A stretch of DNA of 64,000 bases from Pedobacter cryotolerans. GTDB lineage: Bacteria > Bacteroidota > Bacteroidia > Sphingobacteriales > Sphingobacteriaceae. A model generated the notes under the pieces. The model did no database searches. It was not told the origin of the DNA and saw only the letters and a list, made by a program, of their open reading frames with translations. Location: positions 1 through 64,000 of the forward strand of contig NZ_SWBO01000010.1 in the NCBI RefSeq assembly GCF_005116475.1. The letters run 5' to 3'. A program made the position numbers and the translations under genes. This document shows positions 11,183-16,968 of the stretch, piece after piece (the stretch's first letter is position 1; each line of letters opens with the position of its first letter).

Positions 11183-11430
11183 GCTCTTCGAGATGTTCTG
11201 TAAGGCATCTGGAAGAATTGATAAAGTGGATTTGAAAATCCACCAATATTTTAAGTTCGAGATGCGCTTCGCTTAACATCTCGAACAGCATTGGTCTGGA
11301 TTACAAAGTGTGCTGAACTTCGCTCTTCGAGATGTTCTGAAAGGCATCTCGAAGATTTAATATGGTGGATTTGAAATCCACTATTATTTTCAGTTCGAGA
11401 TGCGCTTCGCTTAACATCTCGAACAGCATT
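11183..11430. repeat. Tandem duplication of a nested-hairpin repeat (two units of about 110 bp)
   Basis: Units 11183-11292 and 11322-11430 share GCTCTTCGAGATGTTCTG at one end and CATCTCGAACAGCATT at the other. Each contains a CTTCGAGATG/CATCTCGAAG-type pair, a GTGGATTT/AAATCCAC hairpin and a GTTCGAGATG/CATCTCGAAC hairpin. A partial copy of the last hairpin recurs at 37307-37345. Apart from this, the 325-bp gap between uvrA and the next gene holds nothing recognisable. Confidence 0.75.
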
Positions 11431-11453: not shown

Positions 11454-12008
11454 TTAAACTGGTTCAAACTGGCTTGGATGAACAATTGAAACATATCTTC
11501 CGTGGTGGCTTACAGATGCTGGGCCATATTCTTCAGTTAATATATCTTGTATAGTTGGAAGATTGGCTTCATTTTTTACTAATCTAAATTGAAAAGAGTT
11601 TTTATTAAAATCTTCGATATAAGTATTTGGATTATTAAGAAGATAATGTTCAAGTTTGCGATTTTGCTCAGATGTAGCAGTTGTATTAGCGAAGTTTTCA
11701 TTCAATTCACTAACTGTATCCAATTCAAGATCCTCGTAAGTAGCTTTTCCTTTTATAAGGTGCTCAGAAAAATTTGGAATACACTCGAAACTTTTAGGGC
11801 GATAAAATCGTTCTCCAATTTCGATGTTCACAATCTTATAAGCCGCCTCTTTCATGCTCCATAACAACCAAACCATTTGATCTTGGTTTTCAGCATCAGC
11901 TATTAAATCTTGCTCTTGTTCGGTAAATATTTTCTGCAAATAACCTTTTCTACGCCAGTTACTTTGTTTGGCCGCTAATTGTAAATCAACAATGTCATTA
12001 CCCAGCAT
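11454..12008 (-). CDS. 4'-phosphopantetheinyl transferase superfamily protein
   Basis: 184 residues. GNDIVD at residues 3-8 and WSMKEAAYK near 49-57 are the two magnesium/CoA-binding motifs of the Sfp/AcpS superfamily. It should transfer phosphopantetheine from CoA to the serine of a carrier protein, most simply the ACP encoded just upstream, with which it overlaps by 11 bases. Last gene of the type III PKS operon. A dedicated transferase implies that the cluster's ACP is not served, or not only served, by the housekeeping AcpS. Confidence 0.87.
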   Translation of the reverse strand: MLGNDIVDLQLAAKQSNWRRKGYLQKIFTEQEQDLIADAENQDQMVWLLWSMKEAAYKIVNIEIGERFYRPKSFECIPNFSEHLIKGKATYEDLELDTVSELNENFANTTATSEQNRKLEHYLLNNPNTYIEDFNKNSFQFRLVKNEANLPTIQDILTEEYGPASVSHHGRYVSIVHPSQFEPV

Positions 12009-12258
12009 TGGCGGCTAACTTTTCTTGGATAATAGCAATAGTAGCTTTAACGTTGAGCATTTTAGCCATCGAATCATTATCAATTTCAATGTTAAACTTT
12101 TCTTCAATATCTAAAATAATATCAACCAAATTGGCAGAATTAATTTTCAGATCCACTAAAAAATCGGTTTGCTCTGTAATGCTATTTAAAGCTTCCTTAT
12201 TCTCGGTATATGGCGTAATGATTTCTTTCAAATCATTGATCATTTTTTCGTTATTCAT
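11998..12258 (-). CDS. Acyl carrier protein
   Basis: 86 residues, ACP-like throughout: an acidic first helix, then LKINSANLVDIILDIEEKFNIEID, where the Ser of NSANLVD is the phosphopantetheine site (Asn replaces the usual Asp before Ser). It carries acyl intermediates for the neighbouring ketosynthase and dehydratase. It overlaps the ketosynthase by eight bases and the transferase by eleven. This is a pathway-specific ACP rather than housekeeping AcpP, judged by context. Confidence 0.87.
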   Translation of the reverse strand: MNNEKMINDLKEIITPYTENKEALNSITEQTDFLVDLKINSANLVDIILDIEEKFNIEIDNDSMAKMLNVKATIAIIQEKLAANAG

Positions 12259-13528
12259 TATCGTATCTTTTTAAAATCACACAGGCATTTACATCGCCAA
12301 AACCAAAATTAGCTTTCGCTACAACAGAAATACGTTGATTAATCAATTGAGTTGGCACACAACTTTTATCAATAAGCTTCTCAATATCAGGATTTAAATC
12401 TTCACAATTTACATTCGGCATGATAAAATTTTTATGTAATTGCATCACAGCAGCTACACACTCAATACTTCCGGCAGCACTTAAAGTATGTCCAATCATT
12501 CCTTTTATGCCATTGATGTACGGAAAATCTTTACCTGATCGATTTAATGCTTTCACCCAATTTTCAATCTCTAAAGCATCTTTAGCGGTTGCTGTTAAAT
12601 GTCCGCTCACTAAATCAATATCTTTAGCATCAATTTGAGCATTTTTTATAGCGTTTTTGATGCAATGTTGTACGGCAGTTGGGTTTGGAGCAGTCATAGT
12701 GCCTAAACCACGTTGACCGCCAGAATTTACGTTGCCGCCTAAAACTTCAGCATAAATTTTAGCACCTCTTTGCAAAGCATGGCTTAATGATTCTACAACT
12801 AAAGCACCAGCACCACTGCTTGGTACAAAGCCACTAGCGCTTGTACTCATTGGTCGGCTGCCTTTTTCGGGTTCGTGGTTGTGTTTGTAAGTACAAACTT
12901 TCATGGCATCAAAACCACCCCAAATGTAAGGGCCGCTATCGCTTGTACTACCAGCAATCATGCAAGTTGCTTGTCCCGCTTTTATTCTCTCGTAAGCCAT
13001 TAACAAACTTTCAGTTCCAGTGGCACAGGCCGATGAATTAGTGGTAACTTGATTACCTAAACCTATTTTACCACTTAAATAGGCCGTAATTCCGCTAGCC
13101 ATAGTTTGCGAAACTACTGTGCTGCCTAATCTTTTTACTTGCAATTCATCAATTTTATAAATTGCTTTCCTAAATTTGTCTATGCCCGATGTTCCCGTGC
13201 CAAAAATGGCACCATAATCGTAAAAAGGTTCGTCACTTTCATTTAAAGCTAATCCAGCATCCTGCCAAGCATCCATACCAGCAATTACGCCATACAAAAT
13301 GCCGGTGCTATCTAAATTTTTAAGCTCGAGTTCGGTAAAATAGTTTTGAATTCGCTCTGCAGAAAGCATTGGTTTTCCAGAAATCTGGCAAGAAAAATTC
13401 AGCGCTGCTAACTCTTCATCAAATTTAATCCCTGAAACACCATTTTTAATAGCATGTGTAAATTCGGCAAGATTATTCCCATTGGGGGCAACTACACCTA
13501 ATCCAGTAATTACAACTCTATTATCCAT
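12251..13528 (-). CDS. Beta-ketoacyl-ACP synthase, FabF-like
   Basis: 425 residues, thiolase fold, FabF size. The nucleophile lies in NSSACATGTESLLMAYERI (about residues 160-180) and the second catalytic His in MIGHTLSAAGSIE. The first catalytic His motif reads GHLTATAKDALE in place of the usual HGTSTxxGD, one residue shorter, a variant I associate with secondary-metabolite ketosynthases. It probably extends an ACP-bound acyl chain that becomes the starter for the type III PKS. It overlaps the dehydratase gene by eight bases. Confidence 0.88.
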   Translation of the reverse strand: MDNRVVITGLGVVAPNGNNLAEFTHAIKNGVSGIKFDEELAALNFSCQISGKPMLSAERIQNYFTELELKNLDSTGILYGVIAGMDAWQDAGLALNESDEPFYDYGAIFGTGTSGIDKFRKAIYKIDELQVKRLGSTVVSQTMASGITAYLSGKIGLGNQVTTNSSACATGTESLLMAYERIKAGQATCMIAGSTSDSGPYIWGGFDAMKVCTYKHNHEPEKGSRPMSTSASGFVPSSGAGALVVESLSHALQRGAKIYAEVLGGNVNSGGQRGLGTMTAPNPTAVQHCIKNAIKNAQIDAKDIDLVSGHLTATAKDALEIENWVKALNRSGKDFPYINGIKGMIGHTLSAAGSIECVAAVMQLHKNFIMPNVNCEDLNPDIEKLIDKSCVPTQLINQRISVVAKANFGFGDVNACVILKRYDNE

Positions 13529-13967
13529 TGTTTTTCACGATTAGCATTCCGGCAATTTCGCCTTTGCATACAATTTCTCCAGCTTCGTTTTCCATCCTCA
13601 CTTCACATTTTAATTTATTGAACCTGAAATATTTTTTCTCACTTATCACCACAACCTTTTCAGCAGGATAAACTGGTTTTAAAAACTCAATATTAGTAGA
13701 AGTCATGGCGATGGTTAAATTTTCGACCTCATCTCCTAAAAGAAAAATACCCAAACAAGCCAAACCAATTTGGGCCATGGTTTCGGTTAAAATCACCCCT
13801 GGTGTAACTGGAAAATCCTTAAAATGTCCTTTGTAAAAGTCTAAATCTTCATGAAATGTAAAACTTCCTTTAACACCATTTTCATCAATTTCAATAATCT
13901 CATCTACAAAGAGAAATGGCTTTGTGTAGGGTAGGAGCGCTAATATTTCTTGATGACTTTTTACCAT
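13521..13967 (-). CDS. Hotdog-fold 3-hydroxyacyl-ACP dehydratase-like protein (FabZ/FabA-like)
   Basis: 148 residues with the FabZ layout: LLPYTKPFLFVDEIIEID at the N-terminus, then HFKDFPVTPGVILTETMAQIG containing the catalytic His and the PGV-E/Q block, then IEFLKPVYPAEKVVVISEKKYF. It should dehydrate 3-hydroxyacyl-ACP or act as an ACP-linked hotdog partner. No ketoreductase or enoyl reductase lies in the operon, so full reductive cycles would need housekeeping FabG and FabV. It overlaps its neighbours by seven or eight bases. Confidence 0.85.
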   Translation of the reverse strand: MVKSHQEILALLPYTKPFLFVDEIIEIDENGVKGSFTFHEDLDFYKGHFKDFPVTPGVILTETMAQIGLACLGIFLLGDEVENLTIAMTSTNIEFLKPVYPAEKVVVISEKKYFRFNKLKCEVRMENEAGEIVCKGEIAGMLIVKNNG

Positions 13968-15013
13968 TTCAATAACACACGTTGTGCAGAAAATCCTGGT
14001 CCGAAACTCAACATTAAACCATGTTCGCCTTCCGGAATTGCTGTTTCCATAAATCTTTCTAAAACATAAAGGACAGTTGCACTAGACATATTGCCATATA
14101 ACCTTAAAATTTCTTTGGTATCATTAATGTTTTTGCCTAAATCACTAAAAAGGCTTTCTACCAATTGTACAATCTTTTTTCCTCCTGGATGGAAAATAAG
14201 ATGACTAATATCTGCAATAGTTAACGAGTTTTTTGCCAAAAAAGGATGAATGATTGCTGGGAAATTTTCTGCAATTGTTTCTGGAACTGCCACATCTAAC
14301 ACCATTTGCAAACCTGTATTGGTCATTTTAAAACCCATCATCTGCTCTGCATCGTAAAAGTGATACATTTCTTCGGCTACAATTTCTGGTCCTTGTTCAT
14401 CTTCGTAAGAACTTAGTAATACACAGGCGGCACCATCGCCAAAAATGGCAGCACTCACAATGTTTGCCATGCTAAAATCATTCAATTGAAAAGTTGCCGT
14501 TGGCGATTCTACCGCAATTACAGCCGCTCTTTTATTGGGGTTTGCTTTCAAAAAATTCTTAGCATAAATAATTCCAGAAATACCTGCTGCACAGCCCATT
14601 TCGGTTACTGGAAGGCGAACAATATCTTGTTTTAACTTAAGTTTATTAATCAAATATGCATCCAAAGAAGGTATCATAATTCCTGTACAGCTTACCGTGA
14701 TGATGTAATCTAAATCAGTAGGCTGCCAATTTGCTTTTTCCAATGATGAACGTAGTGCGGCTTCACCTAATTTTATGCCTTCCCTAATGTAAATCTCATT
14801 TCGTTCTTCAAAACTTAAATCGCTAAAAACTTCTTCTGGCGACATGAACGAGTAACGCCGATCTACCGAAGCACCTTCGAAAATTTTCTTTACTTTTTTA
14901 ACGAAACGCTCGTCTTGATCCTTTAACCAAATAGCTAAAAACGGCATAATTTCGGCAGTTGATCTAGAGTATTGTGGTAAGGCTTTGCCCACTGCTTTTA
15001 TTTTTACACTCAT
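13961..15013 (-). CDS. Type III polyketide synthase (chalcone/stilbene synthase family)
   Basis: 350 residues. The Cys-His-Asn triad is intact: Cys in VTEMGCAAGISG (about residue 148), His in LIFHPGGKKIVQ (about 278), Asn in LYGNMSSATVLYVLE (about 311). These enzymes extend an acyl starter with malonyl-CoA and cyclise the product to resorcinols, pyrones or phloroglucinols. With an adjacent methyltransferase and FAD oxidoreductase the set resembles SrsABC-type phenolic lipid clusters; here it is joined to ACP/KAS/dehydratase genes that could make the starter chain. It overlaps the methyltransferase by an ATGA. Confidence 0.93.
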   Translation of the reverse strand: MSVKIKAVGKALPQYSRSTAEIMPFLAIWLKDQDERFVKKVKKIFEGASVDRRYSFMSPEEVFSDLSFEERNEIYIREGIKLGEAALRSSLEKANWQPTDLDYIITVSCTGIMIPSLDAYLINKLKLKQDIVRLPVTEMGCAAGISGIIYAKNFLKANPNKRAAVIAVESPTATFQLNDFSMANIVSAAIFGDGAACVLLSSYEDEQGPEIVAEEMYHFYDAEQMMGFKMTNTGLQMVLDVAVPETIAENFPAIIHPFLAKNSLTIADISHLIFHPGGKKIVQLVESLFSDLGKNINDTKEILRLYGNMSSATVLYVLERFMETAIPEGEHGLMLSFGPGFSAQRVLLKW

Positions 15014-15717
15014 GCGGTTTTAATTATCCATTGGTAACGAAATGCCCATTTCCATTTAATAGAACAGTTTTTTAGCTGGCTTTGTTTACCATATAATTGT
15101 AAATCGGCTTTTTTAAATCCTCTTAATATCGACACTAAACCATCTTCTTTAGACATGTGGTTTAACCCAAAAACAAAACACAATCCGATAAATAAGTAAT
15201 AAGCTAAAGCGCTTCTTTGCAAATCGTTAATTACCATACCTAGGCTTGCCGCTTTTTTAAATCGAGTAAGCAAATCTATAATTTCTTGATCTTTAAAGTG
15301 ATGTAATGTTAAGGTACATAAAATGATGTCACAATCTGTAATTTGATCCTTAAAAATATCTTCACATTTGTAGGTAATGTTTGTGTATTTTACCGAAAGT
15401 TGCGTTGCATGGTTAATGGTAAATTGATTGGCATCAATACCTATTAATTCAAAATTTAATTGTTTTTGTTCAGCATAATTAGCTAACGTTCTTAGCATAT
15501 CGCCATTGCCACAACCAATGTCTAAAATACGGATTGTTTTATTTTGGCTTGTATTTTTTAACAATTTTTTTACCCCATCTAGTGTAACCGCGTTGCCACC
15601 TAATAGTTTATTGATGCTTGCAATTTTATCCAAAGCATCTCTTAAAATTTCACCTTCCATGGCAAAATCATCCATCATTTCTGGTGCTTCGCTTCTTTTA
15701 TTGGTATTTATCGGCAT
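15010..15717 (-). CDS. Class I SAM-dependent methyltransferase
   Basis: 235 residues. Motif I is ILDIGCGNGDMLRTLA (about residues 69-84), followed by ELIGIDANQFTINHA and the post-II stretch DIILCTLTLHHFKD. The shape suggests a small-molecule methyltransferase. Context points to O- or C-methylation of the type III PKS product. Its ATG follows the upstream gene's TAA directly (TAAATG), and its own stop overlaps the PKS start, so the three genes are tightly coupled in translation. Confidence 0.88.
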   Translation of the reverse strand: MPINTNKRSEAPEMMDDFAMEGEILRDALDKIASINKLLGGNAVTLDGVKKLLKNTSQNKTIRILDIGCGNGDMLRTLANYAEQKQLNFELIGIDANQFTINHATQLSVKYTNITYKCEDIFKDQITDCDIILCTLTLHHFKDQEIIDLLTRFKKAASLGMVINDLQRSALAYYLFIGLCFVFGLNHMSKEDGLVSILRGFKKADLQLYGKQSQLKNCSIKWKWAFRYQWIIKTA

Positions 15718-16848
15718 TTAATTATGGATTGAAATTTTATTTCCGTGTGTTTTTTTAATAATTTGATTGAGCAAAAATGGAGATTTTGTTACCGCAGAAA
15801 TTAAGAAATTGGTTGTTTTTTGGTTTCTAAACAGTGTTGATAAAAGACTGCCCATTTTCAATCGGCCATTAAAATTTTGTTGCCACGATTTTTCGTAGTT
15901 AGTTTCCATTTCGGCTCTATTTATCTCGCCGTTGGCAAATTGAAACATTAATTCTGAAGCAATTTTTGCGGCATGTATAGCCATTGCCATCCCGTTGCCA
16001 CAAAGTGGATGAATTAAACCCGCACTATCGCCAATCATTAACATGTGATTTTCGATTTTACTTTTTTTAGCAAAAGAAACCTGACTAATGGTTAAAGGCG
16101 CTTCGAATAAAATTTCACTTTGCTCAAAAATCTGTTTTAGATTTTGATTTTTATAAAGCACTTCTTTCTGATAGGTATCAATATTTTTATAGGCTTTAAA
16201 AGAATTATAATCTGCCAAATAACAGATATTTAAATTTTGATTTTCTACCATAGAAACACCGCAATATCCACCATTAAAGTGATGTAAGGCCACCAAATCT
16301 TTCGGGAAGTTCCCCTTGTAATGTGATTTTACAGCTAAATAATGTGATTTTTGCTGAATAAACGGCCGATTAAATTTTATATCTAATGATGATCGTTTGC
16401 CATAAGCACCAATAACTTGTTTAGCAGTAAATAGCTTACCTAATGATGTAGAAACTTCAAATATTTCATTTTTAAAAAAAACATCAACAACAGTATCAAT
16501 GATAACTCTTACACCGTTTTTAAGGAGTTGCTGGTAAAGAAAATAATCTAACTCATACCTGCTGATACCAAAACCGCCCAAGGGCAATTTGGTAAAAGTA
16601 CTTTTGCCATAAACTGTACTTAATTGCAATTTATTGATAGCTGTGGCAGATAAACTTTTCATATCCAAGCCTAACCAATTTAAATAAGGCAACACTTCGT
16701 TAGAAATATATTCGCCACAAACTTTATGTTGCGGATATGATTGTTTTTCTACAAGTGTTACATTTAGACCTACTTTATTTAAGTGCAAAGCTGCGGTTAA
16801 TCCAGCTAATCCACCTCCAATAATTATAACATCTAAATCATCAAGCAT
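15718..16848 (-). CDS. FAD-dependent oxidoreductase (geranylgeranyl reductase-like/flavin hydroxylase)
   Basis: 376 residues. The N-terminal Rossmann motif IIIGGGLAGLTAALHL and KVCGEYIS (about residue 42), and the second FAD block GDSAGLIHPLCGNGMAMAIHAA (about 271-292), place it in the flavin-dependent monooxygenase/geranylgeranyl-reductase superfamily. In the context of a type III PKS and a methyltransferase it is a candidate ring hydroxylase (phenol to quinol or quinone), but reduction of the chain is also possible. First gene of the seven-gene operon; a near-consensus -7 box (TACATTTA, 16855-16862, minus) sits just upstream. Confidence 0.87.
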   Translation of the reverse strand: MLDDLDVIIIGGGLAGLTAALHLNKVGLNVTLVEKQSYPQHKVCGEYISNEVLPYLNWLGLDMKSLSATAINKLQLSTVYGKSTFTKLPLGGFGISRYELDYFLYQQLLKNGVRVIIDTVVDVFFKNEIFEVSTSLGKLFTAKQVIGAYGKRSSLDIKFNRPFIQQKSHYLAVKSHYKGNFPKDLVALHHFNGGYCGVSMVENQNLNICYLADYNSFKAYKNIDTYQKEVLYKNQNLKQIFEQSEILFEAPLTISQVSFAKKSKIENHMLMIGDSAGLIHPLCGNGMAMAIHAAKIASELMFQFANGEINRAEMETNYEKSWQQNFNGRLKMGSLLSTLFRNQKTTNFLISAVTKSPFLLNQIIKKTHGNKISIHN

Positions 16849-16920
16849 AATTATTAAATGTAAATTAAATTAATTGTAAGGTGATAATGTTTTAATCACA
16901 TTGCAAATGTTTTACAATTA

Positions 16921-16952
16921 AAAAGCCACCCCGATTTTTATCAGAATGGCTT
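16921..16952 (-). terminator. Rho-independent terminator of the YiaA-like gene
   Basis: On the minus strand AAGCCA pairs with TGGCTT, followed by a T-run. It lies directly after the 16969-17370 gene and before the PKS operon promoter, so the operon is insulated from upstream transcription. Confidence 0.7.
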
Positions 16953-16968
16953 CCTTAATTTAAAGTGT

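Follow-up and report, generated by a model that had tools for sequence, protein, structure and literature searches.

Relationship to described operons

Operons in which a type III polyketide synthase (PKS) is encoded beside a methyltransferase and a flavin adenine dinucleotide (FAD)-dependent oxidoreductase are represented by hidABC, by planctomycete operons and by the three-gene polyketide-quinone cluster pkqABC of Mycobacterium and Streptomyces. The operon described here, of seven genes, occupies positions 11454-16848 on the minus strand of a 64,000-nucleotide stretch of Pedobacter cryotolerans DNA (RefSeq assembly GCF_005116475.1, contig NZ_SWBO01000010.1, positions 1 to 64,000; referred to as the window). 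It joins a resorcinol/quinone-type trio of this already known kind (oxidoreductase, methyltransferase and PKS) to a private type II cassette for acyl chains on acyl carrier protein (ACP), consisting of a dehydratase, a ketosynthase (KS), the ACP and a phosphopantetheinyl transferase (PPTase). Trio and ACP/KS half are supported as one co-inherited unit in the clade of this PKS.

Among planctomycetal type III PKS genes, 58 of 96 are reported to lie in operons with a methyltransferase and an FAD oxidoreductase, and the expressed planctomycete PKSs made pentadecyl- and heptadecylresorcinols (PMC10896814). The starter for hierridin, the compound of the hidABC operons, is described as a C14 acyl-ACP (PMC8086630), and the pkqABC product as an alkyl benzoquinone electron carrier with a respiratory role (PMC9927152). 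The window operon resembles hidABC and the planctomycete operons in gene content, its PKS, methyltransferase and FAD oxidoreductase genes being adjacent, with junctions of 0 and -4 bp. The gene order is different, however, and the available parts of the hidABC and planctomycete descriptions mention no dedicated ACP, KS, dehydratase or PPTase; pkqABC has three genes where the window operon has seven.

The sequence-only reading had likened the trio to SrsABC. This holds in so far as a PKS, methyltransferase and FAD oxidoreductase together form a recognized type of resorcinol/quinone operon, as in hidABC and pkqABC. As a direct model SrsABC was set aside: SrsB and BpsB are ICMT-type methyltransferases, whereas the protein in the window matches class I S-adenosylmethionine (SAM)-dependent families, with no ICMT among its Pfam matches. 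ArsA of Azotobacter vinelandii is a type I megasynthase. It is described as a fatty acid synthase that includes an ACP domain, and in the ArsABCD system a fatty chain is passed from ACP to type III PKS, giving alkylresorcinols/alkylpyrones; the type III PKSs listed as accepting acyl-ACP are ArsB/ArsC, GCS and SCO7671 (PMC6274091). The parallel with ArsABCD, also drawn in the earlier reading, is sound as regards ACP-fed type III PKSs but otherwise loose, as in place of the multidomain ArsA the window operon has discrete type II ACP, KS and dehydratase proteins with their own PPTase. CylI, from cylindrocyclophane biosynthesis, is supplied with its chain by a modular type I PKS line and not by a cassette of KS, dehydratase and ACP.

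Type III PKSs are reported to account for 10.74% of the biosynthetic clusters in 2,680 Flavobacteriaceae genomes (PMC10734526) and for 9% of clusters in another survey of that family. Among the papers listed in a search of the open-access literature, which took in PMC9248904 and PMC7440613, none named a product of this Bacteroidota operon or described its genes.

Gene order and active sites

The genes are transcribed in the order FAD oxidoreductase, methyltransferase, PKS, dehydratase, KS, ACP and PPTase, and every open reading frame (ORF) starts with ATG. As the sequence-only reading had it, all of them overlap or abut: the first junction has a gap of 0 bp, and the five that follow overlap by 4, 7, 8, 8 and 11 bp. 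All seven proteins pass the Pfam gathering score. None reaches the cut-off of an NCBIfam model among the matches listed (limited to the best 25 of 112 in the case of the FAD protein), which indicates that none is a textbook FabF, FabZ, AcpP or AcpS.

The FAD-dependent oxidoreductase (15718-16848, minus strand; PF01494, PF01266) is a geranylgeranyl reductase/UbiH-like flavoprotein and a probable ring hydroxylase. Its best NCBIfam models, GG-red-SF (108 bits) and QhpG (87 bits), are both under cut-off, and its matches in the PDB are weak (best 42 bits) and include halogenases, VisC and FixC. The glycines of the FAD motif are present in 119 of 120 relatives, the other being gapped, and the G-D motif in all 120. 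The methyltransferase (15010-15717, minus strand; PF13649/PF13847) belongs to class I of the SAM-dependent enzymes; it scores 129.7 bits against NF004851, under the cut-off of 243, and the SAM-motif glycines are found in 124 of 125 rows, one being gapped.

The type III PKS (13961-15013, minus strand) is a protein of 350 aa. Triad, profile and fold place it in the chalcone synthase superfamily: Cys141, His275 and Asn308 are invariant in 131 of 131 aligned relatives, and PF00195 and PF02797 match at 72.6 and 66.9 bits (cut-off 27). A predicted model with a mean predicted local distance difference test score of 87.9 has Pks11 as its nearest solved fold (Z 47.5, 344 residues aligned, 1.7 A), followed by CylI (Z 45.2, root-mean-square deviation 1.9, 346 aligned, 26% identity), whose PDB entries are titled with acyl- and ketoacyl-N-acetylcysteamine (SNAC) substrates and a resorcinol product. 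It is the one type III PKS in the P. cryotolerans genome.

In the cassette, the putative 3-hydroxyacyl-ACP dehydratase (13521-13967, minus strand; PF07977) is of the FabZ-type hot-dog fold, matching the FabZ model at 67.8 bits, under cut-off, with His48 and Glu62 each conserved in 123 of 123 relatives. The FabF-like beta-ketoacyl-ACP synthase (12251-13528, minus strand; PF00109 and PF02801) scores 271 bits against FabF (cut-off 494), keeps Cys168, His310, Lys342 and His347 in all 123 relatives, and shares 32% identity with the genome's other stand-alone FabF-like protein. The discrete ACP (11998-12258, minus strand) matches PF00550 at 24.9 bits (cut-off 20.8), and its Ser41 is present in 117 of 117 relatives. 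The usual ACP site is D-S-L; here it is N-S-A, which is unusual and is found in 102 of 104 loci of the clade, the remaining two having N-S-S. The 4'-phosphopantetheinyl transferase (11454-12008, minus strand; PF01648, 49.9 bits), of the AcpS/Sfp superfamily, has Asp5, Lys53, Glu54 and Lys58 in common with all 106 relatives, and Asp8 differs in three of these. The genome has five PF01648 matches, this one included. Elsewhere in the genome (G000:C29:151858-152661) a KS match falls inside a 2221-codon open frame, probably a multidomain synthase, with a PF01648 protein approximately 8 kb away.

Co-inheritance of trio and cassette

Across 395 Bacteroidota genomes, PKSs of at least 65% identity and KSs of at least 57% identity to those of the window occur in the same 33 genomes, the next-best PKSs and KSs reaching at most 38% and 54%, respectively. 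Trees of the concatenated trio and of the concatenated cassette, for 35 loci, have 21 of 32 splits in common, compared with a mean of 0.22 and a maximum of 2 when leaf names are shuffled. Among the starred splits, 15 of 18 in the trio tree recur in the cassette tree and 17 of 19 in the reverse comparison, with no starred conflict. These are trees of a quick type, in which one locus (L229) lacks an FAD row and another (L247) a PPTase row. In both, g16, another genus of the Pedobacter family, groups with three loci of the Flavobacterium group (99*, 100*) and Dyadobacter groups with Pedobacter (99*, 98*); this implies that the two halves moved together. The Flavobacterium-group label of g29 is assigned from near-identity with named Flavobacterium loci. 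The earlier reading had named phylogenetic independence of the trio from the ACP/KS genes as one thing that would refute it, and within this clade the congruent trees and the shared set of 33 genomes speak against such independence.

It is very probable that the two halves serve one pathway. The contrary explanation is that the PKS draws on cellular acyl-CoA or housekeeping acyl-ACP, and that the cassette makes some other lipid and is merely co-expressed. The occurrence, outside the clade, of both cassette-free trio-like operons (ten loci) and cassettes without a PKS (seven loci) would fit such an arrangement. Within the clade, by contrast, PKS and KS are never apart (33 of 33 genomes of the phylum sample), trio and cassette have been transferred jointly, and the operon offers no evident acceptor for another lipid. 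In addition, the linkage survives rearrangement in two Dyadobacter loci, where the methyltransferase and PKS genes lie next to a divergent group encoding an enoyl reductase, the dehydratase and the KS, followed in one of them by ACP and PPTase; the map of L253 has the reductase, dehydratase and KS but no ACP or PPTase. Two independent pathways are considered distinctly unlikely. Adjacent genes are, however, co-inherited and co-transferred regardless of whether one feeds the other, and the co-inheritance could come from physical linkage alone, a linkage that has itself been kept throughout.

Proposed pathway and alternatives

On balance it is probable that the operon encodes a self-contained acyl-building and ring-forming pathway, giving a methylated alkyl/alkenyl resorcinol or quinone. 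The PPTase would activate the dedicated ACP, on which the KS and dehydratase, together with a ketoreductase (here also an enoyl reductase) of general metabolism, would build or finish an acyl chain. The type III PKS would off-load this chain from the ACP, add malonyl units (three, by analogy), and release and cyclize the product as a resorcinol (or pyrone). Hydroxylation of the ring by the FAD enzyme and methylation by the methyltransferase could then yield a methylated alkyl/alkenyl hydroquinone/quinone. Observed in support of this scheme are the gene content, the intact active sites, the co-inheritance and the co-occurrence; we infer the ACP hand-over, the order of the steps, the ring type and the product. 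Passage from acyl-ACP to type III PKS is the likely direction: the nearness of the fold to Pks11 and CylI, and the use of acyl-ACP by other type III PKSs, favour such a hand-over. Furthermore, no thioesterase, acyl-CoA ligase or acyltransferase family is found among the Pfam matches of the seven proteins, which leaves the chain with no evident way out other than the PKS. In two genomes, as described below, a related cassette adjoins the gene for DarB, which also forms resorcinols, and this too is in favour of the proposed pathway.

The nature of the ring is less clear, and the choice of a resorcinol/quinone over a pyrone is evenly balanced. A specific alternative, which retains the ACP hand-over and differs from the proposed pathway only in the ring, is that the PKS makes a methylated alkyl alpha-pyrone and the FAD enzyme acts elsewhere. 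The structure nearest to the PKS, Mycobacterium tuberculosis Pks11, is titled as a maker of methyl-branched alkylpyrones. Three residues before the catalytic His, the PKSs of the clade have L, F or M (99, 7 and 9 of 115, respectively; clade counts over 115 loci combine two genome sets, and some species are possibly counted twice), and Pks11, Pks18 and CylI have Trp. GCS and SCO7671 are also reported to give pyrones from hexanoyl-ACP (PMC6274091). Nevertheless, the FAD enzyme and methyltransferase are partners of the kind described for hidABC/pkq operons, and CylI, the second nearest fold, is shown with a resorcinol product. A pyrone formed in this manner is fairly unlikely.

A number of observations weigh against a resorcinol or quinone pathway fed by the ACP. 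The FAD step is the weakest part of the proposal, because the role of the planctomycete FAD enzyme was left open in the published account, in which the methyltransferase of G. maris probably methylates carbon and not oxygen (PMC10896814). No FAD homologue is found among the ORFs listed for the two Dyadobacter loci, over 3-19 kb, and the window operon contains no ketoreductase gene. The family sample (251 genomes) lists 14 from the genus of the window in which the PKS has no match, which indicates that the pathway is dispensable, and the ten cassette-free operons show that the chemistry of the trio does not, in general, need a cassette. Two substitutions in the PKS also bear on the chain. Cys205 is reported to be among the small residues of Pks18 (PMC6274091); at this place Pro171 is found in 115 of 115 clade PKSs, and Cys in 16 of 16 others. 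Similarly, Ile114 is present in all 115 where other PKSs have Thr or Ala. These residues count against a straightforward enzyme for long-chain acyl-CoA, and may mean that the clade PKSs have a modified form of the long-chain tunnel of Pks18.

The best NCBIfam match of the PKS is likewise unhelpful to the proposed order of events. DpgA makes an aryl acetyl-CoA (dihydroxyphenylacetyl-CoA synthase), and the chains of aryl polyenes start from an aryl unit. The sequence of events could be the reverse: a DpgA-like PKS would make an aryl acetyl thioester from malonyl-CoA alone, and this would be loaded onto the ACP and extended by the KS and dehydratase to an aryl-alkenyl or aryl-polyene acid. DpgA (NF042429) is indeed the best model, Pro171 and Ile114, in place of the Cys and Thr/Ala of cassette-free PKSs, could bar a long acyl chain, and an operon that, like that of the window, has a dehydratase but no enoyl reductase would suit unsaturated chains. 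The DpgA score, however, is 176.8 bits, far under the cut-off of 425, so that the PKS does not qualify as a DpgA, and the nearest folds, Pks11 and CylI, are titled as alkylpyrone or resorcinol formers with acyl substrates. The lack of a ligase or acyltransferase among the Pfam matches leaves such a route with no evident means of loading or releasing the chain, and the FabL-like reductase of many relatives, described below, would saturate it. This reverse order is considered improbable.

With ACP, KS and dehydratase as discrete, co-inherited proteins, the feeding of a type III PKS by acyl-ACP can be put to a direct test, more easily than where a megasynthase is involved. Should the product be a quinone, the operon has a bearing on alternative carriers in respiration for a large environmental group of bacteria.

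A FabL-like reductase in related operons

The set of seven genes given in the sequence-only reading is correct for the window but incomplete for the clade, as many relatives hold an additional gene for a short-chain dehydrogenase/reductase (SDR) of approximately 265 aa. This lies between the PKS and dehydratase genes in 26 of 46 clade rows of the PKS tree, and is present in nine of the best 80 named loci. The best NCBIfam model is FabL, for which the highest score among four copies scanned (153.5 bits) is under the cut-off of 328, and the protein is accordingly termed FabL-like and not FabL. FabL is also the nearest solved structure (PDB 3oic, to which the L113 copy was aligned). All 35 cassette copies have a Y-x6-K motif, recognized by pattern in 27 and by eye in eight; a 36th match, in L036, is not in a cassette and was left out. 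The spacing of this motif and the alignment with FabL favour a putative enoyl reductase over a ketoreductase.

Loci in the PKS tree were labelled as carrying the reductase if any part of them gave a BLAST match of 100 bits or more. On this tree the presence of the reductase changes seven times or more, and starred branches force four of these changes. Repeated loss is likelier than repeated gain, since most cassettes outside the clade carry the SDR (L128 and L170 do not). The window operon has none, and the best match to the SDR in its own genome is an SDR of 26% identity. It can be speculated that the cassette, in its form with reductase, dehydratase, KS, ACP and PPTase, is an exchangeable acyl-ACP supply for type III PKS and DarB alike, ring-forming enzymes unrelated to each other, and that loss of the FabL-like gene in Pedobacter leads to an unsaturated chain and hence to a ring-conjugated alkenyl resorcinol that is oxidized to a membrane quinone. 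This extended scheme is, as a whole, unlikely; if true, the presence or absence of one reductase gene would set saturated versus conjugated products across the Bacteroidota.

Trios and cassettes outside the clade

Outside the clade, trio and cassette are separable. Ten loci of the same family encode PKS, FAD enzyme and methyltransferase with no cassette, their PKSs being 28-33% and their FAD proteins 38-46% identical to those of the window. A UbiA prenyltransferase lies within 6 kb in eight of these ten (L042, L044-L047 and L049-L051 among the loci noted), and YceI in five. The operons accompanied by UbiA presumably recall prenylated, agq-type hydroquinone clusters. Six further loci, from g14 (L036-L041), encode a PKS of 33-41% identity followed by a gene of one cluster, which is an ICMT by Pfam in the L038 copy; we take these pairs to resemble the bpsAB-like alkylpyrone pairs.

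Conversely, seven loci (L125, L126, L127, L128, L157, L158 and L170) have a cassette and no type III PKS within the 14-17 kb read. In two genomes (G014 and G631) a related cassette encoding reductase, dehydratase, KS, ACP and PPTase, with a KS 54% and 51% identical to that of the window, is divergent to genes for DarB and DarH. DarB, which scores 634.8 and 614.7 bits in these genomes (cut-off 550) and is encoded by one of the dialkylresorcinol genes (DarA/DarB/DarH), likewise forms resorcinols but is a different ring-forming enzyme from the type III PKS; in the P. cryotolerans genome no protein exceeds the DarB cut-off (NF053539, best 32.2 bits versus 550). At L125 (6776-14544) and L126 (6155-13792), where the cassette is divergent to a DarB/DarH operon, a protein of 300 aa takes the place of DarA; the L125 copy has no Pfam match, and neither copy an NCBIfam match, at the limits used. 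In three f24 loci (L127, L128 and L170) the dehydratase-KS-ACP cassettes are accompanied by a glycosyltransferase of family 2 and by a GNAT-like protein, and in L127 only by a FabL-like SDR. Two f60 loci likewise have the cassette with no type III PKS over the length read.

Distribution

Bacteria of soil and water such as Pedobacter, Flavobacterium and their relatives commonly carry this operon. In the family sample, 38 genomes of the genus of the window hold the PKS, as do eight genomes of g16, at 68-73% identity. Gene order is kept in all 29 other same-genus loci of 4 kb, over their reach (FAD gene to KS), and all seven genes are present in four of four g16 loci. In named records the nearest PKSs are from Pedobacter, and the best 80 matches include Pedobacter, Flavobacterium, Chitinophaga, Dyadobacter, Kaistella, Jejuia, Winogradskyella and Flavihumibacter. 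The KS gene follows that of the PKS on the same strand in 76 of these 80 loci, is divergent and adjacent in two (Dyadobacter), and is cut off by a contig edge in two. The seven-gene order is found in 67 and an inserted reductase in seven, one of which lacks a PPTase match; contig ends cut two loci at the front and two at the back. Data comprising one genome per species yielded 590 pattern-matching stretches, of which at least 564 code for a protein related to this PKS; a locus may appear twice in this count, and the best 80 loci were examined. Three loci (L163, L164 and L167) are too short for their gene context to be judged.

A short contig binned as Candidatus Nitrotoga (L245) carries FAD, methyltransferase, PKS and dehydratase genes, with a PKS of 76% identity, and is probably misbinned Bacteroidota. 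Carriage on plasmids was considered and rejected, the eight matches of the FAD protein in plasmid records all being below 60% identity (best 39%). At L061 (G332:C2:180178-181440) one KS search gave an in-frame TAA in the aligned stretch and another query gave none; this is perhaps the gene's own stop at the end of the alignment.

Operon boundaries and neighbouring genes

The limits of the operon look natural, as far as can be judged from a convergent uvrA gene at the downstream end, terminator-like hairpins between the two, and an upstream hairpin with a T-run. The downstream hairpins, with T-rich tails, span 11226-11384 (starts 11226, 11324 and 11362; reported on the plus strand) and are defined by pattern only; the scan gave six in total, versus 5.0 in shuffled sequence. 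A further hairpin and T-run, on the minus strand at 16915-16955 between the YiaA gene and the FAD gene, was seen by eye and is unlisted in the scan, perhaps owing to loop size. The promoter scan is uninformative, with 15 sites, fewer than the 25 in shuffles.

YiaA was rejected as an eighth member, as it is 120 bp away and, among 115 clade loci, lies close to the PKS in one, that of the window. YceI and UbiA were rejected also, being found within 6 kb in six and none of the 115 loci, respectively. The G+C fraction of the operon (0.32-0.37) is like that of the rest of the stretch, and a foreign origin by base composition was dropped.

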